The notes under the pieces: generated by a model
The model's input: the letters and a program-made list of their open reading frames with translations, nothing else
Databases searched by the model: none
Told to the model about the DNA's origin: nothing
In this document: in pieces, positions 4,193 to 20,815 of the stretch
Numbering within the stretch: position 1 is the first letter of the stretch
How the letters are laid out: each line of letters begins with the position of its first letter
Assembly (NCBI RefSeq): GCF_008274215.1
Contig: NZ_VTPS01000005.1
Coordinates: 1-64,000, forward strand
Length of the DNA stretch: 64,000 nt
Direction: 5' to 3'
Origin: Calorimonas adulescens
GTDB lineage: Bacteria; Bacillota; Thermoanaerobacteria; Thermoanaerobacterales; UBA4877
Translations under genes and position numbers: made by a program

Positions 4193-4538
4193 TAAAAGTC
4201 CTCCCAAGTTAATCTCTCGATATATATTATAGCACATAACGATATGGCATAATGATTCTATTGCAAAAATGGCGCTACCATCCCGGCATCTCGGCGCTCA
4301 TCCTGGTACAACAAGGTCAAGGGATATTCCCCTACCTCGATGATAGGCAATCCAACTGAGAAATATCTATAATTCTATTAATACCTGCATTTTGCATGAG
4401 ACACCTCCATTCGGCGTCCATACCTGATGCCCCTGCTACATTTGTCACTCATTAAGAGTATCACATACCCGCTTCAAGGATGCCTTTGAACGTTATTATG
4501 TCACCTATAGCAAGCGACTACAACGTCATTCCAATAAT
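4193..4538. other. Intergenic, with a short coding remnant
   Basis: The 346 bases between the two moeA genes hold no intact gene. On the minus strand, 4258-4374 is an open frame of 38 codons between two stops and without a start. It reads like a protein tail (segments VGLPIIEVGEYPLT and YQDERRDAGMVAPF). I do not recognise the family. It is probably the end of a gene lost by deletion. Confidence 0.4.
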
Positions 4539-5744
4539 TTAATATAGCCTAACCTTAACCACCTGCCCCCTGTTTAAACCCTCTCTGCCAGCTTCTATTC
4601 GTACAACCCCATGGGCTCTGGTAAGCGATGTGATTAGACCAGATTCTCCATAGACTGGATAGGCAAGGTACTCATTTCCATCCTCTTCAAGCCTGACCGG
4701 CAGATATTCCTCTCTCCCATGGTTGGATGAGTAATTCTCTGCCATGCGTGCTGTTACATATACATCGGAATCCAGTTCCCCATGGGATATAATAGGCCTT
4801 ACAAAAAGCCCGTAGATAGTCAAAGCAGATACAGGGTGGCCAGGCAGGCCAAACACAGCTTTGCCGTCTATACAGGCCAGCAGAGTGGGTTTACCAGGCT
4901 TAACGGAGACACCGTGTACCAACATACGGGACCCATCAAATGATCCCATCACCCTTTCTGTCATGTCCCTCACCCCTACAGAGCTTCCGCCAGATATCAG
5001 GACTATGTCATTATCCAGCAGCATGTCTGAAAGAACTTTCCTCAATGATTTGAAGTCGTCCTTCACTATACCATACACCTCTGGTGTCCCTCCATCCTTC
5101 ACTACAGATGCTGCCAGAGAATACAAGTTTATGTCTCTCACTTCCCCCGGACCTGGATTCTCTCCTGGGCTTACTAATTCGTCCCCCGTGGATAATATAC
5201 CTACCCTCAACTTTTTAAATACAGGCACCTTTATTATCCCAAGAGCAGCTAACACTCCCACGTCCTGCGGCCTTATCCTGTGGCCTTTTGTAAAAAGCAG
5301 GTCACCTCTTTTCACATCGTCTCCTCTTGAAATGATATTCTCTCCCGGCGCTACCGGCCTGGCCACTGTCACCTCTTTGCCCAGCCTCTCCGTGTACTCT
5401 ATCATAACCACCGAATCAGCACCCTCTGGCAACATACCGCCTGTAGGCACATATACGGTGTGGTATCTTTCCAGCTTAATATCGGTCGCCTCTCCCATCC
5501 TCACCTCGCCCTGGATGGTAAGGTATGACGGCAAGGCCTCACTGGACCCAAATGTATCTGCTGCAAAAACCGCATACCCATCCACCGTACTCCGGCTGAA
5601 AGGAGGCAGGTCTTCCGGAGAAATTATTTCCCGGGAAACTATCCTCCCCAGTGACTCCAGAAGGCCCACCTCCTCAGCCTCATCATACCTGAACTCATTG
5701 TTTATAATATCAATAACCTCAGATGTTCTCAAAACCTCCAGCAT
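4539..5744 (-). CDS. moeA: Molybdopterin molybdenumtransferase MoeA (second copy)
   Basis: This 401-residue protein is a standard-length MoeA: N-terminal domain with SRSTVDGYAV near residue 50, GGMLPEGADSVVMIE near 103, the MogA-like domain with STGDELV near 187 and ISGGSSVGVRDMT near 249, and GLPGHPVSA near 298. It lies 12 nt downstream of the ThiF-like gene and transcribes with it. Two MoeA proteins in organisms with AOR-type enzymes may serve Mo and W separately; that split is inference. The palindrome copy at 5356 gives Ala-Arg-Pro. Confidence 0.94.
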   Translation of the reverse strand: MLEVLRTSEVIDIINNEFRYDEAEEVGLLESLGRIVSREIISPEDLPPFSRSTVDGYAVFAADTFGSSEALPSYLTIQGEVRMGEATDIKLERYHTVYVPTGGMLPEGADSVVMIEYTERLGKEVTVARPVAPGENIISRGDDVKRGDLLFTKGHRIRPQDVGVLAALGIIKVPVFKKLRVGILSTGDELVSPGENPGPGEVRDINLYSLAASVVKDGGTPEVYGIVKDDFKSLRKVLSDMLLDNDIVLISGGSSVGVRDMTERVMGSFDGSRMLVHGVSVKPGKPTLLACIDGKAVFGLPGHPVSALTIYGLFVRPIISHGELDSDVYVTARMAENYSSNHGREEYLPVRLEEDGNEYLAYPVYGESGLITSLTRAHGVVRIEAGREGLNRGQVVKVRLY

Positions 5745-5756
5745 ATTATTCCTCCG

Positions 5757-7022
5757 TTAAAATCCAATATATCTTGCATATATCTCCTTGGCTTCACCTT
5801 TGTTTTTAGCCCCTTTAATTATAGCCCTCCCGTCTCTAAACAGGGTTAACCTTTTTCCTTCTGTTTCAAAGCTCAAAAGATAAGGACTTATACTGACATC
5901 AATCCCAACCTCTTTTAATCTATCATAAATACTCTTAAGGTTGATAGAATCCATTACATAGGGAAATACCTCAAAGCTGTCTGATGAACACAGGGACACA
6001 GTATCCGGGTTGTTAAGATTTAAGAATTGAAAATCTTCCTGTATGCAGCAGGGACACTCATCATTCCTTTTTATGTTCACAATATTATAGGAGTTAAACC
6101 AGGCATCTATAAACAGCAGTCCTTTTATCATTGTCTCCTGATTCCCCGAGAGATATTTTATGGCCTCCAGAGCCTCTATGCTTCCTATAATATTGGGAAG
6201 CGGAGATAGTATCCCGCCGGTCTCACAGGTATCAAAGGTTCCCGGTGCCGGCATATCCCTGATATAGCATCTCAGACACGGAGTTTCTCCGGGTATTATA
6301 TCCATTATACTGCCATATCCACCTATGGTGGCCCCATATATCCAGGGTATGCCAAACCTTACCGCAAGGTCATTCATCAAAAACCTTACCTGAAAATTGT
6401 CTGTACCATCCACCATCAGGTCTATCCCGTCAATAAGACGAAGGGCCGTTGCACCATTAAAGTCCGTGTCATAGGCATCTATCTCAACCTCACTGTTTAT
6501 CTTCTTGAGTTTCTCCGAGGCAGCTATCGCCTTAGGCTTATATATATCCGACTCGTCATATAATATCTGCCTATGTATATTGTGCATCTCCACATAGTCC
6601 CTGTCCACCAGACGTATATAACCAACACCACTCCTTACAAGAATCTCTGCTATGGTAGAGCCCAGGCCTCCACACCCTACCACCAGCACCCTCGACTTTA
6701 AAAGTCTTTCCTGTCCATCTACCCCAAACGGTTTAAACGTCATCTGTCTTATATATCTGGAAACAGCGTCTTTAGAATTCCAGTCAAGGTTTATTTCGTT
6801 TGTATCGATATCAATCCCTCCCTTGTACCGATCTCCTTTATTATATAACAAATTATATAACAACACTATATCCCTGAAATGTACATTAGCTATCTCCTCA
6901 GCAACGGCATCCCTCTTGCAGCGTTCACATAATACCTCCACAGCAGAATCTGACCTGCTCTTCACATATTTAAAATACTCCTCTGCAGTAAAATAGCTGC
7001 CACATTTTGAGTATTTTAGCAT
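5757..7022 (-). CDS. ThiF/MoeB/HesA-family adenylyltransferase, N-terminus possibly damaged
   Basis: The protein (421 residues) adenylates the C-terminal glycine of a ubiquitin-like sulfur carrier. Visible features are the nucleotide loop GCGGLGS near residue 117, the metal/ATP acidic segment RLVDRDYVEMHNIHRQ, the zinc cysteine pair CLRC near 250 and a second pair CPCC near 324, and the Thr-Cys-Glu-Thr-Gly segment that supplies the family cysteine. The first 40 residues carry Cys-rich sequence (C7 and CERC at 33-36). The reading frame stays open for 13 codons before this ATG and encodes Cys-Ile-Gly-Cys-Ala-Ser-Cys, a ferredoxin-like motif without a start codon; the ATG has a poor ribosome site. 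The N-terminus may therefore have been cut by the deletion that destroyed the neighbouring oxidoreductase gene. Partner choice between MoaD and another sulfur carrier is open. Confidence 0.85.
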   Translation of the reverse strand: MLKYSKCGSYFTAEEYFKYVKSRSDSAVEVLCERCKRDAVAEEIANVHFRDIVLLYNLLYNKGDRYKGGIDIDTNEINLDWNSKDAVSRYIRQMTFKPFGVDGQERLLKSRVLVVGCGGLGSTIAEILVRSGVGYIRLVDRDYVEMHNIHRQILYDESDIYKPKAIAASEKLKKINSEVEIDAYDTDFNGATALRLIDGIDLMVDGTDNFQVRFLMNDLAVRFGIPWIYGATIGGYGSIMDIIPGETPCLRCYIRDMPAPGTFDTCETGGILSPLPNIIGSIEALEAIKYLSGNQETMIKGLLFIDAWFNSYNIVNIKRNDECPCCIQEDFQFLNLNNPDTVSLCSSDSFEVFPYVMDSINLKSIYDRLKEVGIDVSISPYLLSFETEGKRLTLFRDGRAIIKGAKNKGEAKEIYARYIGF

Positions 7023-7042
7023 CCTGGCACATGACGCACAGC

Positions 7043-7276
7043 CTATGCATGTGTCTGATCATTCCTTTTAACAGCTACCCCAATAGTTTTACCATTCTAT
7101 ATAATTACCTCAATTACCTTATGTCCTGCACGTACTTCTCCACCATGGGATTTCATTGCTTCCGCAATTAGCTTTACTATTCCATCAGTCGGACTTGGAT
7201 AAACGACAGTAGTTACTCCCTCGCCTGCCAGCCAGCCTTTTATCATAGTAAACATCTTAGCTGCGGAAGAAGCTTC
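7043..7276 (-). pseudogene. Relic of a phytoene-desaturase-like FAD oxidoreductase
   Basis: Reading the minus strand gives EASSAAKMFTMIKGWLAGEG, then a Gly-Ile-Val-Lys-Leu-Ile-Ala-Glu-Ala-Met stretch and HGGEVRAGHKVIEVI, an in-frame TAG (7097-7099), then NGKTIGVAVKRNDQ. This is the central helix-Gly-Gly-Glu segment typical of NAD(P)/FAD-dependent oxidoreductases of the phytoene dehydrogenase group, which often accompany AOR genes in Clostridia. Both ends are missing and stops precede it, so it is the remnant of a deleted gene between AOR and the ThiF-like gene. Confidence 0.72.
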
Positions 7277-7304
7277 CTATCATAGCTCTGGATCTCTCAT
7301 TTAA

Positions 7305-9290
7305 CTAACCTATCTTCCCAATCTTCTCTAATTCGGGGATTAGATCTTCAAGACCTACATCTCTTAAATGCTCCCTTGTTGGGTAGCCGGTCTCTCTATT
7401 CCAACCCAGTGCCTCATACCAGTTTGCTACTGTAACTTCAAACTTTTCTGGGTCAACCTGATCATAAAGCACCCTGATAATTTCGTCCCATTCCATTTTG
7501 GCGGTCCTATCGTGATTACGAAGCAGTATCGCCCTTGTTAATGTATTAATCCTCTCCCCTGCCCTATAGTATTCCTCTTCGGAAGTTTCTACGCCGGTAA
7601 CTGAGGAGAAAAGTGCAGCTTCCAATCCTGTAGATTTATGACCTTCCCCAATAATCTCATCTTCATTTTCCCAACGCCAACCCATATACTTGCGCAGTGG
7701 GAATTGGAAGCAAACAGGCAGGCAATCGATGAGTATTCCACGTATTGTAGAATCCTTTGCCCATTTTACCGGGAAGTCACTTCCATATTTGTCCGGATCC
7801 TTCGCCAAGTAAGCAAGGAAATCATCGTGGATCCAATCAGGCCACTTATTATGATGAGGATCACGTGTGTCAATCATCCAATTCAATGCGCCAGGCAGCC
7901 ACATAGGAAATTTCAACTCAGACAATATGCCTCTTGAAGCATAACCCCAGCCCCCAATAGGAGCCACAGGACCTTTCCTTTTATGCTTTGTACCAAATGC
8001 AGGATCATAGCCTTCATGTTGAGGATACCAGTATTTTTCCGGTCCCAGCTTCTCAACCGTTCTTCTCAGACCCTCTGCCAATGTATCGCCAAAGCCTTTT
8101 CTGTAAGCTATCATGTAGAGAAGGTCTATCCACCACTGATTGTTTAGTATATCTGTCGGCATACCCATTAGTGATTCAGTATCAATTCCCATCTCTTTTG
8201 TGTACTGAAGCCATGGAACTATGCCATAAACAATCTCATGATGTCCTATACCTAATTGCTGTGCAAGCACATGGATTTCAAAACCTCGTTCAAAGTTTCT
8301 GTCAGTATCAGCATGGCTAAGAATCTGTTCATATCTGGTGTGTACACAGCCGGTCATTCCGGTTACAAGGCCTATACGGGAAACTGTAGGTACATTTCTA
8401 AATTCAAAGAATCCACAGCCACCGAGACAGCCTGTAGCACATGACTTGGCAAAAATTGGATAAGGCATATTTTGAATTTCGCCCATCCAGTCGTATGCAT
8501 GTGTGTCAAACATTGGCTTATCGCCTGACCAATCTGTCCACCAAGGATTTTCCTCTTTCTTACCAAGATTACCATATATTAAAGGGCGTTTTCTCCTAAT
8601 AGGGTAGAATTCCTTTACTTTTTCAATTGTTGCTTCAACATCTGCAACCCTGCACTGATGTTTTCCTCCAACAAGGGAGATAGCCTTCAGATTCTTGGAG
8701 CCTAATACTGCACCCACTCCGCCCTGTCCAGTGGCGTTATGTGCGCCACATCCCATTATGGCAAAACGAACAAGATTCTCGCCTGCAGGACCGATGCCAT
8801 AGGACTCGGTGTCTTTACCATGACGTTCACGAAGTAATTGTTGTGCATCTATAAGGCCCAGGCCCCAAAGATCTTTCGCTGGTTTTAACTGAGGTACACC
8901 ATCTTGGATTAATAAATAACACGGTTCTGGCGATTTCCCCTCCAATATGATTCCATCATAGCCATTCCACTTTAACTTTGCCGGGAAATGTCCACCTATT
9001 GAAGTATTTGTTAGCTGTTCTGGATAGCTGTGTGGTGATATACTAATAACATTACACCTTCCTGAACAAGGGGATAGAGTTCCAGAGGCAGGTCCGTTCA
9101 CAATTATAACTTTGTTCTCCGGGTCGAAAGCCTTTATCCCAGGTCCAACTTCCTCCCACCATATTCTAAGCGCTACACCGTAACCGCCCACATACTTTGG
9201 GACATATTTCATCGTATCAACTGTTGAGAAGGTTCCTGTTGTGAGGTCAACTCTCAGTATTTTCCCCGCCCATCCATATTCGCTACTCAT
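7305..9290 (-). CDS. Aldehyde ferredoxin oxidoreductase family protein (tungsten-type)
   Basis: This 661-residue enzyme has the AOR domain order: N-terminal pterin-binding domain (GWAGKILRVDLTTG at residues 6-19, GPASGT near 67, NTSIGGHFPAKLKWNGYDG near 94-112), then the cluster-binding middle. AORs use a bis-pterin tungsten centre and a 4Fe-4S cluster to interconvert aldehydes or related carbonyls and acids with ferredoxin. The cluster cysteines here appear as Cys-x3-Cys-x3-Cys near residues 283-291, not the usual Cys-x2-Cys-x3-Cys, with later cysteines near 520 (DCLPVC). A polyferredoxin gene lies 21 nt upstream, as in two-subunit AORs and BamBC-like enzymes. AAAGGAGATG precedes the ATG. 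Substrate unknown; FdhD and MoeA nearby supply its cofactor. Confidence 0.9.
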   Translation of the reverse strand: MSSEYGWAGKILRVDLTTGTFSTVDTMKYVPKYVGGYGVALRIWWEEVGPGIKAFDPENKVIIVNGPASGTLSPCSGRCNVISISPHSYPEQLTNTSIGGHFPAKLKWNGYDGIILEGKSPEPCYLLIQDGVPQLKPAKDLWGLGLIDAQQLLRERHGKDTESYGIGPAGENLVRFAIMGCGAHNATGQGGVGAVLGSKNLKAISLVGGKHQCRVADVEATIEKVKEFYPIRRKRPLIYGNLGKKEENPWWTDWSGDKPMFDTHAYDWMGEIQNMPYPIFAKSCATGCLGGCGFFEFRNVPTVSRIGLVTGMTGCVHTRYEQILSHADTDRNFERGFEIHVLAQQLGIGHHEIVYGIVPWLQYTKEMGIDTESLMGMPTDILNNQWWIDLLYMIAYRKGFGDTLAEGLRRTVEKLGPEKYWYPQHEGYDPAFGTKHKRKGPVAPIGGWGYASRGILSELKFPMWLPGALNWMIDTRDPHHNKWPDWIHDDFLAYLAKDPDKYGSDFPVKWAKDSTIRGILIDCLPVCFQFPLRKYMGWRWENEDEIIGEGHKSTGLEAALFSSVTGVETSEEEYYRAGERINTLTRAILLRNHDRTAKMEWDEIIRVLYDQVDPEKFEVTVANWYEALGWNRETGYPTREHLRDVGLEDLIPELEKIGKIG

Positions 9291-9311
9291 CTCTAATCAT
9301 CTCCTTTATCA

Positions 9312-9800
9312 TTAATATTTCTTTAATTCCAAACACATAGTTGGACACATTTCCACACAGACAGGTCCATTTGGTCTATCTTTGCAGAGGTCGCACTTTA
9401 CAGCCTTTTTCTTTACACTGTTAAAGTTGATTCTCGGGGGATCAAGCGGACAAGCTTTAATGCATAATTTACACCCTATGCACTTTTCCTCATCTATGCA
9501 CCTTGCACCTGTCCTTTCATCAATATATATTGCATGTGTAGGGCAGGCGGCCATACATGATGGGGATATGCATTGCTTACAAGAATAAGCAAAGTACTCA
9601 CCGCGGAATGGATCCCTTGACTCCCATATTCTATTCAGTTCTAGTCCACAAGCTCCATCGTGTACCGCTGCGCAATACATCTCACAGATTCTGCAGTCCT
9701 GGCAAAGTGATTCACTTGGGTCTACCATGGATATATAACCTATTGCTTTTTTCCAGGGACCACCCTTTTTTTCATGATTTACACTTTCTGTATTTTTCAT
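9312..9800 (-). CDS. Four-cluster polyferredoxin subunit of the AOR enzyme
   Basis: The 162 residues carry four cysteine sets: CQDCRICEMYC near 33, CKQCISPSCMAACP near 75, CIGCKLCIKACP near 107 and CDLCKDRPNGPVCVEMCP near 135. This is the layout of the DmsB/HycB electron-transfer family. It carries electrons between the AOR active site and ferredoxin or another partner in the cytoplasm (no signal peptide). AAAGGAGGG lies just before the ATG. It is translated immediately before the AOR gene, so the two probably form one heteromeric enzyme. Confidence 0.92.
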   Translation of the reverse strand: MKNTESVNHEKKGGPWKKAIGYISMVDPSESLCQDCRICEMYCAAVHDGACGLELNRIWESRDPFRGEYFAYSCKQCISPSCMAACPTHAIYIDERTGARCIDEEKCIGCKLCIKACPLDPPRINFNSVKKKAVKCDLCKDRPNGPVCVEMCPTMCLELKKY

Positions 9801-9891
9801 AGATAACCCTCCTTTTGAGATTATAGACTTTATAAATCACTTAAAAGCATATACCTAATTTCTGGGGATCTATCTATATAGCGAAACAAGA

Positions 9892-10704
9892 CTAACACTT
9901 TGCCACGACACCCAGTCGTTCAGGTTTTGAATATACCGTAAGATGGCTACCTCGAGCATACCCAACAAGTGTTATATTAAGCTCTTGTGCCAGTAAAATT
10001 GCCCGTTCTGTAGGTGAAGTGAGCGAAACTATTATAGGAGTTTGCATTTTTGCAGCTTTACGTAACATCTCTGAAGATATTCTTCCACTGGTTATTAATA
10101 TCTTGTCCTTGGTAGAAATCTTTCGCATCATACATTCACCAATGATTTTATCAATAGTATTATGCCTCCCTATGTCTTCTTCCAATGCAATAATGCTCTG
10201 GCTATCACAGATAGCAGAAGTATGAATACCACCACTCGTGCGATAATGCACAGCGCTTTGCTGCATTTGCTGCATCAAAAAAAGTAGTTTTTCAGGTGTT
10301 GTATATATTTTAGAATTTAATTTGGGGCCAATATCACTATCAATTAGGTTCATGCCACCACCACAACCGGAGGTAAGAACTCTTTTTACAGGCAAAACGA
10401 AATCCTCTTTCTTTAATTTTACATCTGCAATGGCATCATCCACGCAAACCCGACGGAAAAACACGTAAGTTATATCATCGATATCATTAATAATTCCTTC
10501 AGCGAGCATGTATCCTATCACCAGGAATTTCAATTTTAAAGGAGTGCAGAGGATGGTCACCAACTCCTGACTGTTTATATATATGGTGAGAGACATCTCC
10601 TTTGGTACGGAAAGATCAATTTCTTCCCATTTTCCATTAGCATATCTTTGACTCTTAATACCCGGGGCAACACCTTGTGGTATCTCTATTAAATTTTCTT
10701 CCAA
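9892..10704 (-). CDS. fdhD: FdhD-family sulfurtransferase
   Basis: FdhD transfers sulfur from a cysteine desulfurase to the molybdenum or tungsten pterin, classically for formate dehydrogenase. The segment TSGCGGG near residue 120 carries one catalytic cysteine rather than the CxxC of E. coli, and DIGRHNTIDKIIGE near 180 and TSGRISSEM near 209 are family motifs. I place the start at TTG 10704, with GGAG 9 nt upstream; an earlier TTG at 10713 abuts the ribosome site. No formate dehydrogenase is in the window, so service to the adjacent AOR is plausible inference. Confidence 0.93.
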   Translation of the reverse strand: MEENLIEIPQGVAPGIKSQRYANGKWEEIDLSVPKEMSLTIYINSQELVTILCTPLKLKFLVIGYMLAEGIINDIDDITYVFFRRVCVDDAIADVKLKKEDFVLPVKRVLTSGCGGGMNLIDSDIGPKLNSKIYTTPEKLLFLMQQMQQSAVHYRTSGGIHTSAICDSQSIIALEEDIGRHNTIDKIIGECMMRKISTKDKILITSGRISSEMLRKAAKMQTPIIVSLTSPTERAILLAQELNITLVGYARGSHLTVYSKPERLGVVAKC

Positions 10705-10879
10705 ATCTCCCAACTCCTTTGACTCCTTTAATACTTAGCACTCTTTAACATAAATACGATGACGCATTATCTATTGTAAAATTTAATATGGTTGTGGTAT
10801 GATGCTCATAGGAAGGTGAGCATTATGCCTACGTTTCTGCAATATCCCACCAACTTTGCTTATTACAAACATATTAATT

Positions 10880-11070: not shown

Positions 11071-12213
11071 CTATCCACTGTAATTTCTAACAAATTCATT
11101 GACAGCCAGCATATTTTCACGAGTGGCATCATTTTTATAGGACATCATTTTGTTCTGGCTGAATACAAAACCTTCACCCATTTCATCAATAAGCATTTTA
11201 GCATAATCTACGCATTTTTGTGGTGTTGATTTTCCCAATAGGTCAACAGGCATTCCTCCTGCAAGACAAATATTTGGGACTTTCTTTCTGACTTCAAATA
11301 TATTATCATTTTCAACGTGCAGTATTATTGTACCTTTGGGTACATCCTGGAAGAAATCGGCAATTCGCAGGAATTCGGCTTCACAGAAAAGATATGTGGT
11401 TTTTCCCTGTGCTGTCAATCTGTCAATCACTTTTTTGTATGTAGGCCAGTAGAGCTCTTCAAACTGTTTTACGCTCATTATACTGTGGGCCAAAAATGCT
11501 GAATACAAGTCACAAACATAATGTGTATTTGGAAGTTCCAAAAGCTTATCAACATAAGCTAAAAAGCCAGGCTCTGATGCCTGTACAAAATCTTTTATCT
11601 TGTTGGGGCGCTTTCTCATGTCGATGGAAAACTCCTTTATCCCTCTATATCCGGTGAATAAAGTTTCAATTGGAAGCTGGCAGTAATTCTTGTAAACTTC
11701 AGGAATACCATATTTGTTTTGGAATATGCCTTTTATCTTTGCATCATATGCTCTGAATTTGCCCAGTTCTATAATTGCTTCCTGTATCTGCCCAATTGTA
11801 AGTTCCCCGAATTTTCTTGGTGCTACTTTTGTCCAGAGGAACATGGTAGGATTAGCCAAATATTCATCATATTCGTCCCCCTCCATAAGTACATGATCTA
11901 CCGCATTAATAGCACCAGTTTCGTCATTGATCTGATGTTGAAGTCCGCCAAGTATATTGTTCAATTTATTAACATTTCTTGTTCCATAATCAAGATAAGC
12001 ATCAAACTGGTAGCGCTCGTGATGCTCACACATAACTTTCTCCATAATGTCCCAATCGCTTGTTGCCTCACTGAGCTTGACATTCAAATCAGAATCAAAT
12101 ATCTTCCATGTGAAAGTATTGGCTATCATCGGAGTTCTTTTAGGTTTTCTGAAGTTCATTGCATCATTAAACAACTTCATTCTTTCTTGAAGCATCTCCT
12201 GTGCACTTGTCAT
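11071..12213 (-). CDS. Uroporphyrinogen decarboxylase-fold methyltransferase (MtaA/CmuA-like)
   Basis: The 380 residues have the UroD barrel used by methylcobamide:CoM and related corrinoid-dependent methyltransferases. Features include NFRKPKRTPMI near residue 20 and the late AGGMPVDLLG near 320. The His-x-Cys zinc motif of MtaA is not evident (LHVEND instead), so it may be a substrate-methyltransferase variant. It begins one base after the stop of a gene whose C-terminal half is a corrinoid protein, which supports a role moving methyl groups on or off a corrinoid. The start has GGGTGGGTG upstream. Confidence 0.8.
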   Translation of the reverse strand: MTSAQEMLQERMKLFNDAMNFRKPKRTPMIANTFTWKIFDSDLNVKLSEATSDWDIMEKVMCEHHERYQFDAYLDYGTRNVNKLNNILGGLQHQINDETGAINAVDHVLMEGDEYDEYLANPTMFLWTKVAPRKFGELTIGQIQEAIIELGKFRAYDAKIKGIFQNKYGIPEVYKNYCQLPIETLFTGYRGIKEFSIDMRKRPNKIKDFVQASEPGFLAYVDKLLELPNTHYVCDLYSAFLAHSIMSVKQFEELYWPTYKKVIDRLTAQGKTTYLFCEAEFLRIADFFQDVPKGTIILHVENDNIFEVRKKVPNICLAGGMPVDLLGKSTPQKCVDYAKMLIDEMGEGFVFSQNKMMSYKNDATRENMLAVNEFVRNYSG

Positions 12214-12214
12214 A

Positions 12215-12829
12215 TTATTTCACCCACCCCTTACATATTTTTACACCTTCAGCGGCGTTTGTGGTAAATGCATCTGCCTCAACATACTCATATGATTCCC
12301 TGGTTACAGGATTTTCGCTTATTATTATCTTTACCCCGTCCCTGAGTCCTGCTTCCTTTAATCCGTCAATTGTATCCTTCATGGAGTCTATTGCAAGCGT
12401 CAATACCCCGCTTAAGCCCACTATGTCTGGCTTTACTTCCTTTACCTTTTCCACAAAATTTTCAACTGATTGGTCTATCCTAAGGTCATACACTTCAAAT
12501 CCGCCTGCTTCAACCATGCTCTTGAATATGTTCTTACCACGGGCTCGATTTTCTATGCTGCCGCCATATTTATCTGTACGGTGGTTAAACAACGGTGAAA
12601 AGAAGTTGCTGATAAGTATGCCATGCCCTCCATGAAGCAAGACCATGTCCATTCCAGCTTTAAGAGCGCGTTCTGCTGCATCGGCAAATAACTTGATCCA
12701 ATTATTTATATCTTCTTGAGACATCATATCGATAGGCGACTTGCCTTCAGGCATTTCATGTCCAAATGCAAATCCAGCGAGTTCGATCGATGCCTTGGCT
12801 CCATACCGATGTACGGCATCCGCCAACAC
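12215..12829 (-). pseudogene. Chimeric relic: ene-reductase N-part joined to corrinoid-protein C-part
   Basis: The 204-codon frame joins two unrelated proteins. Residues 1 to about 97 are the middle of an Old-Yellow-Enzyme/2,4-dienoyl reductase barrel (GMDMVLLHGGHGILISNFFS, then NHRTDKYGGSIENRAR) lacking its first ~120 residues. From GKNIFKSMVEAGGFEVYDL onward it is the B12-binding domain of a methyltransferase corrinoid protein (VKPDIVGLSGVLTLAIDSMK, then KICKGWVK). The junction is exactly where a corrinoid protein has Asp-x-His-x-x-Gly; the cobalt-ligating His is lost. Neither half can work as usual, so I call it a deletion-fusion pseudogene. Its end is intact and coupled to the UroD-type gene. 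Confidence 0.8.
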
Positions 12830-13669: not shown

Positions 13670-14077
13670 TCAACGGTTCTTTTCTTTGATAAGCGCTTTA
13701 TAGGCATCAGCATTGAGTAAGTTGTTAAGCTCTTCCTCTAGTTTCGTTGGCTCAATCACCACTAGCCACCCTGCATCATATGGGTCCCGATTTATAATGC
13801 TTGGCTCGTCGATCACATTAGCGTTTACCTCCTTTACTTTGCCACTTATGGGAGAGTAGATGTCTGAAACTGATTTTATAGACTCCGCCGATGCGAAAGG
13901 CTGCATCTGCTTGACCTCACTCCCAACTTCAGGTAATTCGACGAATACTATTTCTTTCAACATCTTTTGAGCGAAGTCAGTTATACCGACCCTCACCGTG
14001 CCGTCAGTCATAACCCTAGCCCACGTGTCCTCCTTTGTATAATAAAGAGTTATTCTAACTTCATATTCCTCAGCCAT
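13670..14077 (-). CDS. gcvH: Lipoyl H-protein, GcvH family
   Basis: The 135 residues are a full H-protein: TKEDTWARV near residue 14, RVGITDFAQKMLKEIVFVEL, and the lipoyl-lysine segment ESIKSVSDIYSPISG near residues 65-79. H-proteins carry lipoamide-bound aminomethyl groups and electrons in glycine cleavage. No gcvT, gcvP or lipoyl ligase is in the window. The gene follows an FAD dehydrogenase and an HdrD-like protein on the same strand (93-nt gap), so it may shuttle electrons or carbon for that pair instead; related lipoate-binding proteins work with Hdr-like complexes in sulfur oxidation. GAGGAG lies upstream of the ATG. Confidence 0.92.
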   Translation of the reverse strand: MAEEYEVRITLYYTKEDTWARVMTDGTVRVGITDFAQKMLKEIVFVELPEVGSEVKQMQPFASAESIKSVSDIYSPISGKVKEVNANVIDEPSIINRDPYDAGWLVVIEPTKLEEELNNLLNADAYKALIKEKNR

Positions 14078-14170
14078 TTAATAACACTCCTCTCGCACAT
14101 TCGCTAATTCTGAATTAAGTCAATAACCACCTGCAAAGCAATTGTTATCTTTATTCAATAAAAGGCATGG

Positions 14171-15337
14171 TCAAATCTGTATCCCCATGGCCTCAGCCAC
14201 AATCACCGACAGATCATATACTTCCATTTTGTCTTTCCTCGCTGCTTGAGTCAAACTGTTCTCACACAAAGGACAAGCCGACACAAGGGCCTCTGCTGCC
14301 GTGCCTTTGGCCTCTTGTATTCTATCATACGCTATGTCCTTTGATAGATCTGGAAACGCTACAGCAACCACGGCACCACCGCCACAACACCAAGCGTTAC
14401 CTCTGTTTCTAGGCATTTCAACAAACTTTGCTCCTTTGATTGCCTTCAAGGCATTCCTTGGCGGCTCGTAAATATTTTCGTGTCTTCCAAGGTGGCATGG
14501 ATCATGGTAAGTGAGGGTCTTTACAATTTCTGTGTCAAGGTTAATCTTACCATTCTCAATCAAATCAGCAATTACTTCGCTGCTATGCACAACTTCAAAG
14601 GGAAGTTTGCCAATGATTTCAGGGTAATCTGTTTTAAGGGAATGAAAACAACCTGCACAAGATGTTATAACTCTTTTAACACCCGCCACTTTTAACGCAT
14701 TAACATTGTGCTGGATCAATTCTTCTGCAAGAGACGCATTACCATCCCATAATTCTGGAACGCCGCAGCACCACTCATCCTCCCCTAGGTATGCCACATC
14801 GATACCACCTTTTTTGAGAATGGCTACTGTAGCCTTAGCTATTTTAGGGTTTCGATAAGATGCATAGCAACCAGCAAAGTAGACTGTATCACCCGTCTTA
14901 GGAAGGTCTAGTCCTGCAGCCCACGCAGATCGTTTTTCTACAGGTTCACCAAATGGGTTATGTGACTTCTGAACATTGGAATCTACTGCTTTGAGAGCTG
15001 GCAGAGGGCCTTTACCTTCTCTGACAATATCTACTCTCATAGCCCGGGTAATCTTCGTTTCATCAATTGCCGGTTGTCCTGTGTGATGATCCAGCAGTCC
15101 GCATTGTTCATAGCAACTTTTGCATCCAAGACAGGTATAGACGACATCAATGAGCTCAGGAGTGTATTCAAGTTTACCATCAAGGATTGCTCTTGCTATC
15201 TGGTTTCTTCCTCTAGCGACATAATGGTCAAAGCCACCTGTATGTTGTTGGACAGGACATATGTAACCGGCCTCTCCAACGATGCATTTCCCACATCTTC
15301 CACAGCTTTCAACTGCAACTCTATATTTTTCCAACAT
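14171..15337 (-). CDS. HdrD/GlpC/GlcF-like iron-sulfur oxidoreductase subunit
   Basis: The 388 residues begin with two 4Fe-4S motifs, CGRCGKC...CP near residues 12-28 and CLGCKSCYEQC near 69-79. Two CCG domains follow: Cys near 157 with WCCGVPE near 189 and SCAGC near 227, then CHLGRH near 284 with WCCGGG near 318 and CPLC near 360. CCG domains bind non-cubane clusters in heterodisulfide reductase and act as electron subunits of D-lactate and glycolate dehydrogenases. It lies 15 nt after the FAD-dehydrogenase stop, with AAGGAGG before the ATG, so the two are most likely one enzyme. Confidence 0.92.
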   Translation of the reverse strand: MLEKYRVAVESCGRCGKCIVGEAGYICPVQQHTGGFDHYVARGRNQIARAILDGKLEYTPELIDVVYTCLGCKSCYEQCGLLDHHTGQPAIDETKITRAMRVDIVREGKGPLPALKAVDSNVQKSHNPFGEPVEKRSAWAAGLDLPKTGDTVYFAGCYASYRNPKIAKATVAILKKGGIDVAYLGEDEWCCGVPELWDGNASLAEELIQHNVNALKVAGVKRVITSCAGCFHSLKTDYPEIIGKLPFEVVHSSEVIADLIENGKINLDTEIVKTLTYHDPCHLGRHENIYEPPRNALKAIKGAKFVEMPRNRGNAWCCGGGAVVAVAFPDLSKDIAYDRIQEAKGTAAEALVSACPLCENSLTQAARKDKMEVYDLSVIVAEAMGIQI

Positions 15338-15352
15338 GTTTATTCTTCCTCC

Positions 15353-16777
15353 TTATAGGTTCCAAAGTCCTGGACATAGAATATTATTCGGGTCAAGCGT
15401 TTTCTTGATACCGCCAATGAATTTGGAGAATGCAGGTGACCAAACCGAACTTACAAGGTTTGAGTTGCTGCCTTGGGCGTAGCATACACTCGTTCCTTCT
15501 TTCAGAATAAAATCGACACCCTCTTTCCATACCTTTCTTACATAATCTCCTGCTCCGGGAACAGCATCATTCCAATGCAGAGTTACTCCAATTAACATCG
15601 CGTTTGCGATTGGGAACGAATAAAATACCCTTGAGGCTCCATATTTTGCATTTTCTTCTTCATGCTTATCAAATACGTAAAGAAGTTTTTTGCAAAATTC
15701 CAGAGAACCCTTCCTGGGATATGCTAGTTCCCATGTCATAAACGGACAGGAGTTGGAACAAGCTTCATGCACTATTTCCGCCGTCCCGGTGCAACCATGA
15801 GCACCATAAAAAACCATCTCAGGAGTTCCCGGTTGACCCTTTCCGTCTAAACAGATTTTTTCGATACCTTTGAGCCTGAGGTCTACATCTTCCTGGTTAT
15901 TGCCTTGCACCGAGAAGAACAGACCGTATCCTTCCACGCCGCGTACACCGAACTTTGCCATGGTGGGCATATCATGCATTATTATGCCGCTGTATAATGG
16001 CGGGGTGGTCTTACTCAGTTCCAACTGAACGTTCCACACGTCTTCCATTGTGCTAAAAAGGAAACTACCGGACTTACTAATCTTGGGGATAGGATACATC
16101 AATTGAGTTACTTCTGTAATGATGCCGAATGCACCTCCACTGCTTAAGAATAAATTAGTCAAATCCGGCGCTGTTGCTTCCCTATAGTCAATACCCGTTC
16201 GATTTACATTTGTGTCAGGCCCTGCTCCCGTGGTGATAATTTCGCCAGTAGGCAAGACTACTTTCAAGCCCAATATATGACGCCAGTTATATCCTCCTGA
16301 AACGTTAACGCCGCCACCATTTACCCCGCTTAGTATTCCGCCCATCGAAGCAGTAAAGTAAGGCCCTATAACTGAGTGAACAAAATATCCATAATCTCTC
16401 AACGCATCGTCAAGCATACTGGGACGGATACCTGCGCCATAAGTTACCTTCTGGTTTTCTACGTCAATATCGAATACTTTATCCAAACGGCCTAGATCAA
16501 GAACAATGTTTCTTGCCGGTTCACCTTTTGTTATACCGCCGGCGGATTGCCCGCCTCCTTTTAGCGTCACCGGGAAACCCGTTCGATTTGCAAGCTTTAC
16601 AATTTCCGACACCTCTTCAGTACTTCCAGGTCGAACAACTATCCCAGGTTTTACCGGTGCAAATGCACTTACATCACGTGAGTAAGGTATAAGGGCGAAG
16701 TCTTCATCCGTAACATATTTTGATCCAACAATCGCACCTATGGCCTCATACAATGGATGATGTTTTCTTGTCTCCAT
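15353..16777 (-). CDS. FAD-linked dehydrogenase, GlcD/D-lactate dehydrogenase family
   Basis: The 474 residues are a vanillyl-alcohol-oxidase-type FAD protein: the PCMH FAD domain spans about 35-225 (VVRPGSTEEVSEIVKLAN, GGGQSAGG, then GGGVNVSGGYNWRHILGLKV and SSGGAFGIIT), with a C-terminal substrate cap ending LDPNNILCPG. Family members oxidise 2-hydroxy acids such as lactate and glycolate, or related substrates such as aryl alcohols. The partner is the HdrD-like gene directly downstream. AAAGGAG precedes the ATG. Substrate is not determined; the divergent PucR-type gene is the likely regulator. Confidence 0.88.
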   Translation of the reverse strand: METRKHHPLYEAIGAIVGSKYVTDEDFALIPYSRDVSAFAPVKPGIVVRPGSTEEVSEIVKLANRTGFPVTLKGGGQSAGGITKGEPARNIVLDLGRLDKVFDIDVENQKVTYGAGIRPSMLDDALRDYGYFVHSVIGPYFTASMGGILSGVNGGGVNVSGGYNWRHILGLKVVLPTGEIITTGAGPDTNVNRTGIDYREATAPDLTNLFLSSGGAFGIITEVTQLMYPIPKISKSGSFLFSTMEDVWNVQLELSKTTPPLYSGIIMHDMPTMAKFGVRGVEGYGLFFSVQGNNQEDVDLRLKGIEKICLDGKGQPGTPEMVFYGAHGCTGTAEIVHEACSNSCPFMTWELAYPRKGSLEFCKKLLYVFDKHEEENAKYGASRVFYSFPIANAMLIGVTLHWNDAVPGAGDYVRKVWKEGVDFILKEGTSVCYAQGSNSNLVSSVWSPAFSKFIGGIKKTLDPNNILCPGLWNL

Positions 16778-17090
16778 TTTTACAATCTCCTTTCTTTAAT
16801 TCTTCTTTCACACGCTGGTATTTTTCCAGCGTGCGCACTTGACTCTTTTTAAATAATTATATTCCTCTCTGCAAACATATTATAAATTCCTCTTTTTAAT
16901 AATTAATCTGCTAATTTTTAATGACATTTGTAAAGGTTACATTTGATAAGCTTTTTCTTAATTATTTTATTGATTTTATTATAGAAAATTATATTGCCAT
17001 TTAGTATGTGCACACAGACTGAAATATCTCTACCGAACTGGTTGTTTTTTCGGTCACTTTGCATTATACTGAAAATGGGTGATATATTTT
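16778..17090. promoter_or_regulatory. Divergent control region between FAD dehydrogenase and PucR-type gene
   Basis: A perfect 8-bp hairpin CACGCTGG/CCAGCGTG lies near 16813-16835, just upstream of the FAD dehydrogenase, and could be an operator or terminator. A self-complementary TGTGCACA sits at about 17007-17014. A good plus-strand promoter is TTGTTT (17042-17047), a 17-bp spacer, then TATACT (17065-17070), driving the regulator. The rest is AT-rich without genes. Autoregulation and control of the divergent operon by the PucR protein are inferred. Confidence 0.6.
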
Positions 17091-18608
17091 ATGAAGTTGA
17101 GCATGTGGATTCTCGCGGATTGGTTAGCCAAATACAAACCATCTGTTAACATTTGCGAAGGACATGCTGTGCTTTCGGGTGTTCGGCTGTTTTCTGCTGA
17201 AGATCCCAACATGAGCAACTCCATAGTTTATATCGGTCGTGCTTCCGATTTTTTCCCTGATAAGTTTTCTGAAGAAAAAGTTTTATGCGTAAATAATAAA
17301 GATTGGATAATGTTCGACCATAAGAATTTGAGAGATGTATTGAATGATATTCTCAAAGCCTTTGAATTTTATAATGAATGGGAAACCTCGCTTAAGGAAG
17401 CTGCTTATTCAGGTGAATCATTCCAGGCACTTCTTGATTTAAGCCAATCTGTATTTAATAATCCTATGTTTATCGCAGACTGGCGCGGAAAGGTACTTGC
17501 CCAGACGAGTCAATATGAGCCGGGCCCGGATGAGGAAATGTGGGAATATATGATTTTACACGGATATGTTCCAGCTTACGCATATGGCAGACTGAAACAA
17601 TTCCCTGAACAGTGTCTTGAAATCGAATACAAAAAGGAAATCGCAATTATGTTTTTTCCGCCGTATAACTATCGATGTATTCACTGCAGTATAAACTATG
17701 GCAAGGGAAATTTTATATATTTTCACATAATTCAAAAGAATACAGTGCTGACTAATGGTATGATACAGCTGGCAGAAACTCTAAAGCAAGCAATTTTGAT
17801 TCTACTGCGATTTATCAATTTACCCACTGATGTACATCCTGCTTCAGTGCTGTTTTCAGAAATGCTATCCGGTAAGCTTCCAGATGACGATGCGTTAAAA
17901 TGGGTAATGTTCACAATGGGCTGGGAAGATACAAAAAACTGGTATTTAATTTCATTTCACAACCTATACCCTGACCAGTTGTCAAGAACAGCCCTGTTGG
18001 GACTACTTGAACACCATATTCCGCAAGGTTTTACCTTCATTTGGAAAACTTATTTAATTATGCTTATTGATTGTCAGGATTGGCCTATAGCCCTACCCAG
18101 GATACAACAACTGTTAAAAGATGGGCTATTTTGCTGTGGTGTTTCAATGCCATTTAGTGATTGGAGCAACTTGTCTGTCTACCTCAAGCAAGCAGAGGTT
18201 GCAATAGAATATTCACAGGATAAGGACATTGTAAACATGTGCGCTGACCATGCTTGGAGTTATCTTTTAAATGAGTTTGCACAATACAGCAAAAATACAA
18301 TGATGCTCCATCCTGCTATTAATCAACTTGAGGAATATGACCGTAAAAAGGGGACTGAACTTACTCGAACGTTGTATGAATACCTGCGTAATGAACGCAA
18401 CTGCACTATAACTGCCAATGCCTTATTTATCCACCGTAATTCCCTGCAGTACCGACTTGGGCGAATATATGAATTAATTGATGCAGATTTGGATAACCCT
18501 GATGTTAGAATGCATATTATGCTTTCATACCAGATAAAGGAACACATGAAAAGTACTATCCCGAAAATAAATCCCAGCAAAAAAGGCAAAAAAACAACAA
18601 CCACCTAA
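17091..18608 (+). CDS. PucR/CdaR-type transcriptional regulator
   Basis: The C-terminal 70 residues are the PucR helix-turn-helix: TLYEYLRNERNCTITANALF, then IHRNSLQYRLGRIYELI. The N-terminal part (about residues 1-250) has a sensory region with a possible GAF-like core, followed by a GGDEF-like linker domain typical of the family. I choose the ATG at 17091, eight bases after GGGTGA; the GTG at 17079 lies too close to the promoter -10 box at 17065. Such proteins activate neighbouring catabolic genes in response to a metabolite, so its target is probably the divergent FAD-dehydrogenase operon. Confidence 0.88.
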   Translation: MKLSMWILADWLAKYKPSVNICEGHAVLSGVRLFSAEDPNMSNSIVYIGRASDFFPDKFSEEKVLCVNNKDWIMFDHKNLRDVLNDILKAFEFYNEWETSLKEAAYSGESFQALLDLSQSVFNNPMFIADWRGKVLAQTSQYEPGPDEEMWEYMILHGYVPAYAYGRLKQFPEQCLEIEYKKEIAIMFFPPYNYRCIHCSINYGKGNFIYFHIIQKNTVLTNGMIQLAETLKQAILILLRFINLPTDVHPASVLFSEMLSGKLPDDDALKWVMFTMGWEDTKNWYLISFHNLYPDQLSRTALLGLLEHHIPQGFTFIWKTYLIMLIDCQDWPIALPRIQQLLKDGLFCCGVSMPFSDWSNLSVYLKQAEVAIEYSQDKDIVNMCADHAWSYLLNEFAQYSKNTMMLHPAINQLEEYDRKKGTELTRTLYEYLRNERNCTITANALFIHRNSLQYRLGRIYELIDADLDNPDVRMHIMLSYQIKEHMKSTIPKINPSKKGKKTTTT

Positions 18609-18808: not shown

Positions 18809-20815
18809 CTATATACTTCTTGCCACTTCGTAAGCATCCCAGATGGCGTACATGATATTGCGCGCCTTATTGGCATCGCCTATAATATAAACATTAGGCA
18901 TCTTATCCGCAATCTCATGATACAGCTTTTGATCAGCTCTAAGGCCTATAGAAATTACAACAGTATCAGCCGGTATTGTACTTCTCTTGAAATCTCTGTC
19001 TATAACCTCAACGGCACCGTCCTTTACCTCCAGCAGGCTGTTATTGGTTACAGCTTTGACATTATAAAACTTAAGCATATCAAGAACCATAGTCCTGTTC
19101 ATATGCGGTACCGGAAGTCCGGAGGATATAAGCTCAGGCAACATCTCTACAACAGTAACATCCTTGCCGTCCATAGCTAAACTGATAGCAGTCTCACAGC
19201 CAACCAGTCCGCCGCCGATTACAACCACCTTCTGTCCCACGGGTTTTTTCTTTAGCAATACATCCGTGGCAGTAGCAACATTGTCCCTGTCTATACCTGG
19301 AACATTGGGCATAATAGGTTTAGAACCTGTAGCAACCAAAATCACATCTGGTTTTCTCCCCTCAATAAGCTGTGGTGTCACCTCGGTATTCAATTTCACA
19401 TCGATATTTAACTTTTTCATCTGCGTCTTATACCAGTCAAGAAGTCTCGCATTGTCCTTCTTGAACTCGTCCACTGAACCCTCTACCACATGGCCACCAA
19501 GCTCTCCTGTCTTTTCGTAGAGTGTAACCTTGTGTCCCCTCAAGGCAGCTACTCTGGCGGCCTCCATGCCTGACACACCGCCGCCGATTACCAGAACGTC
19601 CTTAACCTTCTCTGCAGGACTTATGCCATACTCTATCTCTCGGCCGCAGGCAGGATTCACTGCACATGATAGGGGTTTGCCAACAAAGCCACGCCCCAGG
19701 CATCCGTCATGGCATCCTATGCACGGACGTATATCCTCGATCCTTCCCTGCATGACCTTGTTTACCCACTCAGGATCTGCCAGAAGCCCTCTTCCAAGGT
19801 TTATCATATCTGCTGCCTTGCCTTCCTCCAGGGTCTTTTCTGCAAGCTCCGGTATCTCCATTCTCCCGGCTACTATCAGCGGCGCATTGACAACCTTTTT
19901 TAGCTGCTCGGTAAGCGGCAGGTACAGGCCATGTTTTTGATAAATGGGCGGATGTGCCCAGTACCATGCGTCATATGAACCGGCATCGGCATCAAAGGCA
20001 TCGTAGCCTGCCTTTTCAAGTATGGGCGCTATTGTGAGGCCCTCCTGAGTGTCGCGCCCTTTTTCTACAAAATCCTCACCGTCAAGTCCACCCTGATTCC
20101 AGTCCTTTATATAGCTCTTTATGCTAAACCTTAAAGCCACCGGGAAGTTCTCACCATTTACCTTCTTAATAGCCTTAACTACCTCTATAGGTAGTCTTAA
20201 TCTTCCCATCAAATCTCCACCGTATTTGTCTGTCCTCCTGTTAAACATCGCAATAGTAAACTGGTCTAAAAGATAGCCCTCATGCACAGCATGTATCTCG
20301 ACACCGTCAAACCCGGCCACCTTTGCTATAGCCGCCGATTCGGCAGCCATCTTTACAAGTCTTTCCACCTCATCTGTAGTAAGCTCGCGACATGTAATCG
20401 ATGGGTCCCAATAGTTAGGTATTGCGGATGGGGCTACAGGCTGACAGGCAAGCATCTGAGGTGAAGCCACACGGCCTAAGCCTATCCCCAGCTGCAAAAA
20501 TATTTTTGACCCATAGGCATGAATCCTCTCCACCATTTCGGAGGATGTCCTTATGAAGTGTGACGGGTCAATAGTGGGACACGGGATAGTCCCCTCATGA
20601 ACCTTTTCTATCTCGTTTTCTATCTTTACTATACCGGTTATGATAAGGCCGGTGCCACCCTTTGCCCTTGCTACATAGTAGTCCTCAGCCCTCTTGGAAA
20701 AACCTCCTCTCTCGGTAGATAGCCCAAGTATACCCATAGGAGCCATTGCAATCCTGTTTTTTATCTCCACGCTGCCTATCTTGATGGGTTCAAAAAGCTT
20801 TTCAAAGCCTGCCAT
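18809..20815 (-). CDS. Enoate reductase / 2,4-dienoyl-CoA reductase-like flavoenzyme
   Basis: The 668 residues have the three-part layout of this family. An FMN barrel occupies about 1-355 (KNRIAMAPMG, then GFDGVEIHAVHEGYLLDQF and FNRRTDKYGGDL). A 4Fe-4S motif CIGCHDGCLGR with a further cysteine is near 365-390. An FAD/NAD(H) Rossmann part follows, with GGGVSGMEAARVA near 412 and GGGLVGCETA near 541. The enzyme moves hydride from NADH through FAD, Fe-S and FMN to an activated C=C bond. Length and motifs are close to 2-enoate and cinnamate reductases. It is transcribed alone, with GAGGAG before the start and its own terminator. A truncated paralogue lies near 12.5 kb. Confidence 0.9.
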   Translation of the reverse strand: MAGFEKLFEPIKIGSVEIKNRIAMAPMGILGLSTERGGFSKRAEDYYVARAKGGTGLIITGIVKIENEIEKVHEGTIPCPTIDPSHFIRTSSEMVERIHAYGSKIFLQLGIGLGRVASPQMLACQPVAPSAIPNYWDPSITCRELTTDEVERLVKMAAESAAIAKVAGFDGVEIHAVHEGYLLDQFTIAMFNRRTDKYGGDLMGRLRLPIEVVKAIKKVNGENFPVALRFSIKSYIKDWNQGGLDGEDFVEKGRDTQEGLTIAPILEKAGYDAFDADAGSYDAWYWAHPPIYQKHGLYLPLTEQLKKVVNAPLIVAGRMEIPELAEKTLEEGKAADMINLGRGLLADPEWVNKVMQGRIEDIRPCIGCHDGCLGRGFVGKPLSCAVNPACGREIEYGISPAEKVKDVLVIGGGVSGMEAARVAALRGHKVTLYEKTGELGGHVVEGSVDEFKKDNARLLDWYKTQMKKLNIDVKLNTEVTPQLIEGRKPDVILVATGSKPIMPNVPGIDRDNVATATDVLLKKKPVGQKVVVIGGGLVGCETAISLAMDGKDVTVVEMLPELISSGLPVPHMNRTMVLDMLKFYNVKAVTNNSLLEVKDGAVEVIDRDFKRSTIPADTVVISIGLRADQKLYHEIADKMPNVYIIGDANKARNIMYAIWDAYEVARSI

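Follow-up and report, generated by a model that had tools for sequence, protein, structure and literature searches.

A FAD–CCG gene pair with an adjoining H-protein gene in Calorimonas adulescens: a candidate lipoyl-coupled oxidoreductase of anaerobes

In the thiol:fumarate reductase of methanogens (TfrAB), thiols exchange electrons with a FAD subunit through CCG clusters; TfrB draws the electrons from thiols and the enzyme works in the reductive direction. Lipoic acid in such redox use is so far known mainly from sulfur-oxidising microbes, and few lipoate-dependent systems have been described (PMC10332631). In one of these, sHdr-LbpA, a lipoyl protein works with an Hdr-like protein (PMC6067878), which provides a precedent for the same kind of partnership as suggested in a preliminary description of the DNA analyzed here. 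This DNA comprises positions 1 to 64,000 of contig NZ_VTPS01000005.1 from Calorimonas adulescens (64,000 nucleotides, hereafter the window) and contains a trio of genes for a FAD protein, a CCG-domain iron-sulfur protein and a GcvH-like lipoyl carrier protein (H-protein).

We assign a probability of roughly 0.5 to the reading that the trio specifies a FAD/iron-sulfur oxidoreductase of two subunits whose electron partner is a lipoylated H-protein of its own. This reading builds on features of the sequence, namely on the gene order, the FAD fold, the four cluster motifs of the CCG protein, the lipoyl lysine, the recurrence of the trio, and the dihydrolipoamide dehydrogenase (E3) and lipoylation genes found elsewhere in the genome. 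In the proposed mechanism the FAD would exchange two electrons with an organic substrate, the electrons would pass two [4Fe-4S] clusters before reaching the non-cubane CCG clusters, and the latter would open or close the disulfide of the lipoyl arm. E3, encoded elsewhere in the genome, would link the arm to NAD(H), a step that is modelled on the proposal for bacterial sHdr (PMC6067878). The mechanism is plausible and unproved, and nothing on the trio or on experiments with it was found in the open-access PMC papers searched. A transfer of C1 units by the arm, which had been considered as well, was not borne out, as none of the trio loci showed a gene resembling a T-protein.

The unit consists of the following features:

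15353..16777, minus strand: FAD protein with D-lactate dehydrogenase/vanillyl-alcohol oxidase (VAO) fold, 474 aa, first gene of the unit (Pfam FAD_binding_4, 91.8 bits)
14171..15337, minus strand: CCG (HdrD/TfrB-like) iron-sulfur protein, 388 aa, second gene (Pfam CCG, 137.8 in two stretches, and Fer4_8)
13670..14077, minus strand: GcvH-like lipoyl carrier protein, 135 aa, third gene (Pfam GCV_H, 147)
13874..13876, minus strand: codon for K68, the lipoyl lysine (ESIKSVSD), placed by a manual count along the open reading frame (ORF)

Transcription runs from the FAD gene via the CCG gene to gcvH, with intergenic gaps of 15 and 93 bases. A purine-rich stretch of the ribosome-binding type was recognized by eye 5' of every trio gene, and no terminator-like site was found in the gap between the CCG and GcvH genes (14077-14171). 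That the trio genes behave as a single unit is supported. The CCG protein harbors two [4Fe-4S] motifs (C12-C15-C18-C27 and C69-C72-C75-C79) as well as two complete non-cubane cluster motifs, CX(28-45)CCX(28-42)CXXC, and all these cysteines are conserved in an ortholog from UBA5623, a genome introduced below. Its closest curated family is TfrB, with 182.1 bits and thus below the equivalog cut-off of 385. K68 of the H-protein is invariant across 13 aligned H-proteins. The window H-protein contains no cysteine, and this, together with the absence of sHdr neighbours, ruled it out as an LbpA.

To place the FAD protein, a structural model was built from 29 sequences (pLDDT 85.7, pTM 0.88); an earlier model from four rows had been poor (pLDDT 56.8). 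Best structural matches were D-lactate dehydrogenases (8jde: Z 38.0, rmsd 2.8, 439 residues aligned), followed by D-2-hydroxyglutarate dehydrogenase (Z 34.6), LctD of Acetobacterium woodii (Z 34.2) and vanillyl-alcohol-type oxidases (Z around 33), in a match list from which the absence of a family does not exclude it. Foldseek also placed a D-lactate dehydrogenase at the top. However, the motifs GHxGDGNxH and EHGIG were absent from the window FAD protein and from every GcvH-linked FAD protein examined. Of 29 aligned FAD proteins, 5 carried both motifs, and not one of these 5 was GcvH-linked. GHxGDGNxH was found in 25 of 66 FAD rows; among the rows without it are proteins of more than 1000 aa with matches to FAD as well as CCG. 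The second histidine of GHxGDGNxH is the residue differing between two LDHD sequences that were compared, one being the H405A entry 8jdb. The protein thus shares the fold of D-lactate dehydrogenases, whereas the usual chemistry of that family is doubtful because the two motifs are missing; what had initially been called a 2-hydroxyacid-type flavoprotein fits that name by its fold and not by its active site.

These data bear on the mechanism that had been envisaged at first, a plain D-2-hydroxyacid dehydrogenase of the glycolate or D-lactate type whose electrons would go first to the lipoyl protein and from there to NAD+. Its fold neighbours include LctD, and both the GlcD and the GlcF models gave matches, which stayed below the cut-off. 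With both motifs absent and a glcD score of 78.7 bits against an equivalog cut-off of 567.9, we consider such an enzyme improbable. The potential of the 2-hydroxyacid couple is about -0.19 V. From there electrons would have to move uphill to lipoamide, for which -0.29 V is given (PMC6067878), a potential near that of NAD(H). For the FAD/iron-sulfur oxidoreductase with its lipoyl partner, the missing hydroxyacid motif and the low lipoamide potential led us to lean slightly towards the reductive direction, in which the dihydrolipoyl arm would deliver electrons to an unsaturated or oxidised acceptor, similar to thiol:fumarate reductase. A dedicated catabolic module, as suggested in the preliminary description, is possible, but the chemically easier direction may be the reductive one.

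Subsequently, we turn to the lipoate-related genes of the genome. The source assembly (2.59 Mb, 54 contigs, 98.7% complete) contains three gcvH genes including the trio copy. One of the others is part of a complete gcvT-gcvH-gcvP1-gcvP2 operon on contig C17, followed by LipS1, LipS2 and a ligase (Lpl), and the third, on contig C33, adjoins AcsV-type corrinoid activators. With two more gcvH genes, one of them inside a complete operon, the trio gcvH is a spare copy for this genome; the other gcvH next to gcvT and gcvP, for which a search had been proposed, thus exists, and the trio does not hold the only gcvH. Among ten genes tested in the window (7.3-20.8 kb) neither gcvT nor gcvP was found, in agreement with the absence noted at the outset. 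Two E3 genes scored above the cut-off; one lies with E1, E2, LipB-like and LipA-like genes and the other in a group of Wood-Ljungdahl-type folate genes (neighbours named by eye). The E2 gene on contig C13 has adjoining LipB-like and LipA-like genes, also named by eye. On C33 (174-9115) two AcsV-type corrinoid activators come after gcvH, then a corrinoid protein and one more gene; this H-protein is one on the Wood-Ljungdahl side.

The trio recurs in another phylum. Desulfobacteraceae UBA5623 (locus L129) harbors an orthologous trio with unchanged gene order on a single strand, with identities to the window of 38.5% for the FAD protein (483 columns, E 6e-101), 47.8% for the CCG protein and 46.5% for GcvH. 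A second orthologous trio, its FAD gene broken by a masked stretch, was detected in genome G494 of the same class, which additionally encodes a FAD-CCG pair without GcvH. The survey for the trio in other genomes proposed in the preliminary description was therefore positive, and a trio unique to C. adulescens is ruled out. The window-type FAD protein was found in 4 of the 85 genomes of the class of UBA5623 and in 11 of 297 genomes of its phylum, with five candidates scored per genome. In a contig scan with the window FAD protein alone, none of the 13 pattern matches was a relative. Searches with the FAD protein in sets of 61 and 398 genomes returned distant family members only (best non-own match 125 bits, 36% over residues 9-250), and a plasmid search likewise only distant FAD proteins.

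Hints towards a substrate come from two of the loci in this phylum. Ahead of the UBA5623 trio lie two genes from the family of 2-hydroxyacyl-CoA dehydratase D components (PF06050). In another locus from Desulfobacterota (L186:4264-13907), two FAD-CCG pairs, with genes of the window type, lie with a flavoenzyme of the OYE family that is 48.6% identical to the product of window positions 18809-20815, together with genes resembling 3-hydroxyacyl-CoA dehydrogenase, hydratase and ligase (by eye except for OYE). As substrate hints both are weak, and the OYE counterpart is only a lead since OYE proteins are common.

A second set of trios was obtained when 398 genomes of the own phylum were searched with the CCG protein (match at 1e-55 in 53 of 398; four candidates per genome scored). 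Six of 29 non-own loci read with 1.5 kb flanks carried FAD, CCG and GcvH genes in the same order and on the same strand (G074, G115, G158, G078, G185 and G105; in the last, a ligase-like gene separates CCG from GcvH). By a simple binomial the chance of six in 29 is about 4e-7 to 3e-10, although three of the six are closely related to one another (CCG 70-83% identical). The FAD proteins of these loci share only 20-35% identity with that of the window over part of the length, and the H-proteins have [ST]GKW instead of the canonical SVKSVSD. Varying sets of Lpl, LipB, LipA, LipT-like, LipS2 and LipS1 genes were present in all six, and E1 or E2 in most; family names were taken from locus L109, and the LipT-like protein, named after PMC10332631, matches TIGR02032. 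A contig scan with four cluster H-proteins led from 171 pattern matches and 34 loci to nine loci (L118-L126) with FAD-CCG beside GcvH, three of which are genomes among the six. Their records belong to Thermoanaerobacteraceae, Bacillota, Clostridia, Syntrophomonadaceae, Syntrophomonas, Smithella and Syntrophaceae. Otherwise, the 34-locus scan contained L129 as the one true relative of the window trio. FAD-CCG was lacking in its archaeal loci, from ANME-2 and others, and most of the remainder were canonical gcv operons.

The large clusters of this kind (L109, L113-L117 and L118-L126; Bacillota and Syntrophaceae) comprise E1, E2, Lpl, LipB, LipA, one or two SGKW-type GcvH, FAD, CCG, LipT-like, LipS2 and LipS1 genes, and hence both lipoate assembly routes alongside a FAD-CCG pair. 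In ANME-2 no GcvH was found beside the FAD-CCG pairs, and the H-protein genes lie next to lipoate genes or elsewhere. Three loci from ANME-2/Methanosarcinales (L131, L135 and L151) encode two differing adjacent GcvH-like proteins (TIKAVSQ and SAKWVGG) downstream of LipS1/LipS2, and no gcvT or gcvP match was found in these loci.

The embedding of the second-lineage trio among LipA, LipB, Lpl, LipT-like, LipS1, LipS2 and E1/E2 genes would also suit an H-protein that serves as lipoyl store or relay to E2, like GcvH of Bacillus subtilis, while the FAD-CCG pair aids lipoate assembly or reduction and not catabolism. We regard this role as quite improbable. Neither the window trio nor that of UBA5623 is adjoined by a lipoate gene, and the E2 of C. 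adulescens has LipB-like and LipA-like neighbours of its own.

To analyze if the two sets of trios share one origin, a CCG tree of 49 rows was calculated, from which truncated, masked and over-long rows as well as same-genome duplicates were left out. The window, UBA5623 and both G494 proteins formed a 100/99 clade, and the lipoate-cluster CCG proteins a separate 100/100 clade with 12 of 15 rows linked to GcvH. The GcvH label needs four changes on this tree, and at least two are forced by well-supported branches. Since the two GcvH-linked clades are separate, H-proteins have joined FAD-CCG pairs on two or more occasions, and a single origin of all FAD-CCG-GcvH sets was ruled out. L042/G224, nearest to the window in a first CCG tree (branching only), was dropped for length; in the family of G224 a window-type CCG protein occurred in one of eight, G224 itself.

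A link to glycine cleavage was assessed through GcvP, which was found in 13 of 15 GcvH-linked genomes and gave no match in G494 and G424. G494 (5.4 Mb) has the trio and E3 above the cut-off and no detectable GcvP, and its H-protein therefore cannot serve a detectable glycine decarboxylase, an argument that is strong but not final. At 1e-60, E3 was absent from three of the 15 genomes (G078, G185 and G424). A lipoyl arm without need of E3 was considered and dropped; G078 and G185 do have GcvP, so that the absence of E3 there says little.

Several findings weigh against a lipoyl partner dedicated to the FAD-CCG pair. The window H-protein exceeds the TIGR00527 equivalog cut-off for GcvH (147.3 versus 115.85 bits) and carries SIKSVSD, whereas SAKW or SGKW is found in the other trio-linked H-proteins. 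In a GcvH tree of 59 rows, from which the long-branch ANME group with TIKAVSQ and two more rows were excluded, it was placed among canonical H-proteins (99/96) and not with those of UBA5623 and G494. All family tests returned it as an ordinary GcvH. Because it groups with ordinary GcvH and passes the equivalog cut-off, it could still serve the glycine cleavage system (GCS). Moreover, the majority of FAD-CCG pairs in the same families lack a neighbouring GcvH: besides UBA5623 and G494, GcvH was next to the pair in none of eight loci read in the phylum of UBA5623 (G693, a short contig, left out), and only 2 of the 11 genomes bearing the window-type FAD protein have the trio. The double CCG motif is present also in CCG proteins without GcvH and so is no proof of a lipoyl partner, and among the neighbours tested no E3 or lipoate gene adjoins the window trio.

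Several of these points, along with the canonical ESIKSVSD and a GcvP in the own genome, would fit a spare GCS H-protein that merely lies downstream of an independent FAD-CCG dehydrogenase and serves glycine cleavage or the Wood-Ljungdahl side. We consider this unlikely, as a gcvT-H-P1-P2 operon and an AcsV-linked gcvH are present in the genome besides the trio copy, UBA5623, G494 and the second lineage show the same FAD-CCG-GcvH order, and G494 is without a GcvP match. A single clade of the window, UBA5623 and G494 H-proteins was not rejected (p-AU 0.177). The window may have kept an ancestral H-protein with altered motif or swapped in an ordinary one, and in both cases the H-protein would have stayed at the locus. 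In 29 non-own loci of the H-proteins nearest in sequence to that of the window, FAD or CCG genes within 1.5 kb were found in none.

A broader proposal, which we put forward only tentatively, is that FAD-CCG-H units form a further general lipoate-dependent class beside 2-oxoacid dehydrogenases, glycine cleavage and sHdr. These would be flavin oxidoreductases coupled to the lipoyl dithiol/disulfide in anaerobes (acetogen-like Bacillota, Syntrophomonadaceae, Syntrophaceae and Desulfobacterota), with H-proteins recruited at least twice and an arm that ties NAD(H) via E3 to a substrate couple without ferredoxin or Etf. If true, this would give a reason for the orphan gcvH genes and the lipoate clusters of organisms in which glycine cleavage offers none, and would add a new electron carrier to anaerobic metabolism, in syntrophs and in acetogen-like anaerobes.

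Upstream of the trio, two further genes were considered:

17079..18608, plus strand: PucR-type regulator gene, divergent from the unit (Pfam HTH_30)
18809..20815, minus strand: BaiCD-like flavoenzyme of the OYE/dienoyl-CoA-reductase type beside the unit, a possible pathway partner

From its position, the PucR-type gene is likely the regulator of the unit. ORFs and Pfam matches reproduced this divergent gene as well as the coordinates, single strand and order of the trio given in the preliminary description. Elsewhere in the window, MoeA-type, aldehyde ferredoxin oxidoreductase, ferredoxin-like and FdhD genes lie close together (2288-10713) and mark a tungsten/molybdenum enzyme region. The ORF at 12215-12829 reads like the middle of an OYE flavoenzyme (residues 33-130) joined to a corrinoid protein's C-terminal half, which starts near residue 97, and adjoins a URO-D-type methyltransferase gene (11071-12213); the fusion is a deletion scar or an assembly join. 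At 49258-55539 a protein of 2093 aa with SLH, Big_2 and lamin-tail domains is encoded, a large S-layer-anchored surface protein.

Compared with known systems, the trio resembles TfrAB in that its CCG protein is related to TfrB. Unlike in TfrAB, the score is far under the TfrB cut-off, the FAD protein has a VAO/D-lactate dehydrogenase fold and is not TfrA-like, and the carrier would be a protein-bound lipoyl arm. With LctD of the A. woodii lactate dehydrogenase-Etf complex (7qh2) it shares the fold of the FAD protein, and with the glycolate oxidase GlcD/GlcF the pairing of a FAD protein with a CCG protein; it differs from both by the lack of the active-site motifs, and EtfAB is not encoded in the unit. 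In contrast to the GcvH of the GCS, the window copy is not encoded with gcvT and gcvP among the ten neighbours tested. An H-protein gene apart from gcvT/P in an anaerobe is also described for the Wood-Ljungdahl gcvH of acetogens (PMC5039349), to which kind the AcsV-linked copy on C33 belongs, but no FAD-CCG pair is present there. As in sHdr-LbpA, a GcvH-like lipoyl protein is encoded beside CCG-domain proteins, and for both an electron flow between non-cubane clusters, lipoyl arm and E3 is proposed (PMC6067878, PMC10332631). Unlike sHdr, however, the window encodes a GlcD-type FAD protein and no HdrA/B/C set, no sulfur-trafficking gene was found among the neighbours tested, and the genome has genes of the Wood-Ljungdahl type. 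The H-protein itself lacks the two conserved cysteines, near the N- and C-terminus, by which LbpA is defined in PMC6067878, where some archaeal LbpAs are excepted. Nor does its gene lie beside hdr-like genes with LipS1/S2 and sLpl(AB); LipS1/S2 and Lpl of C. adulescens are encoded with gcvTHP on C17.

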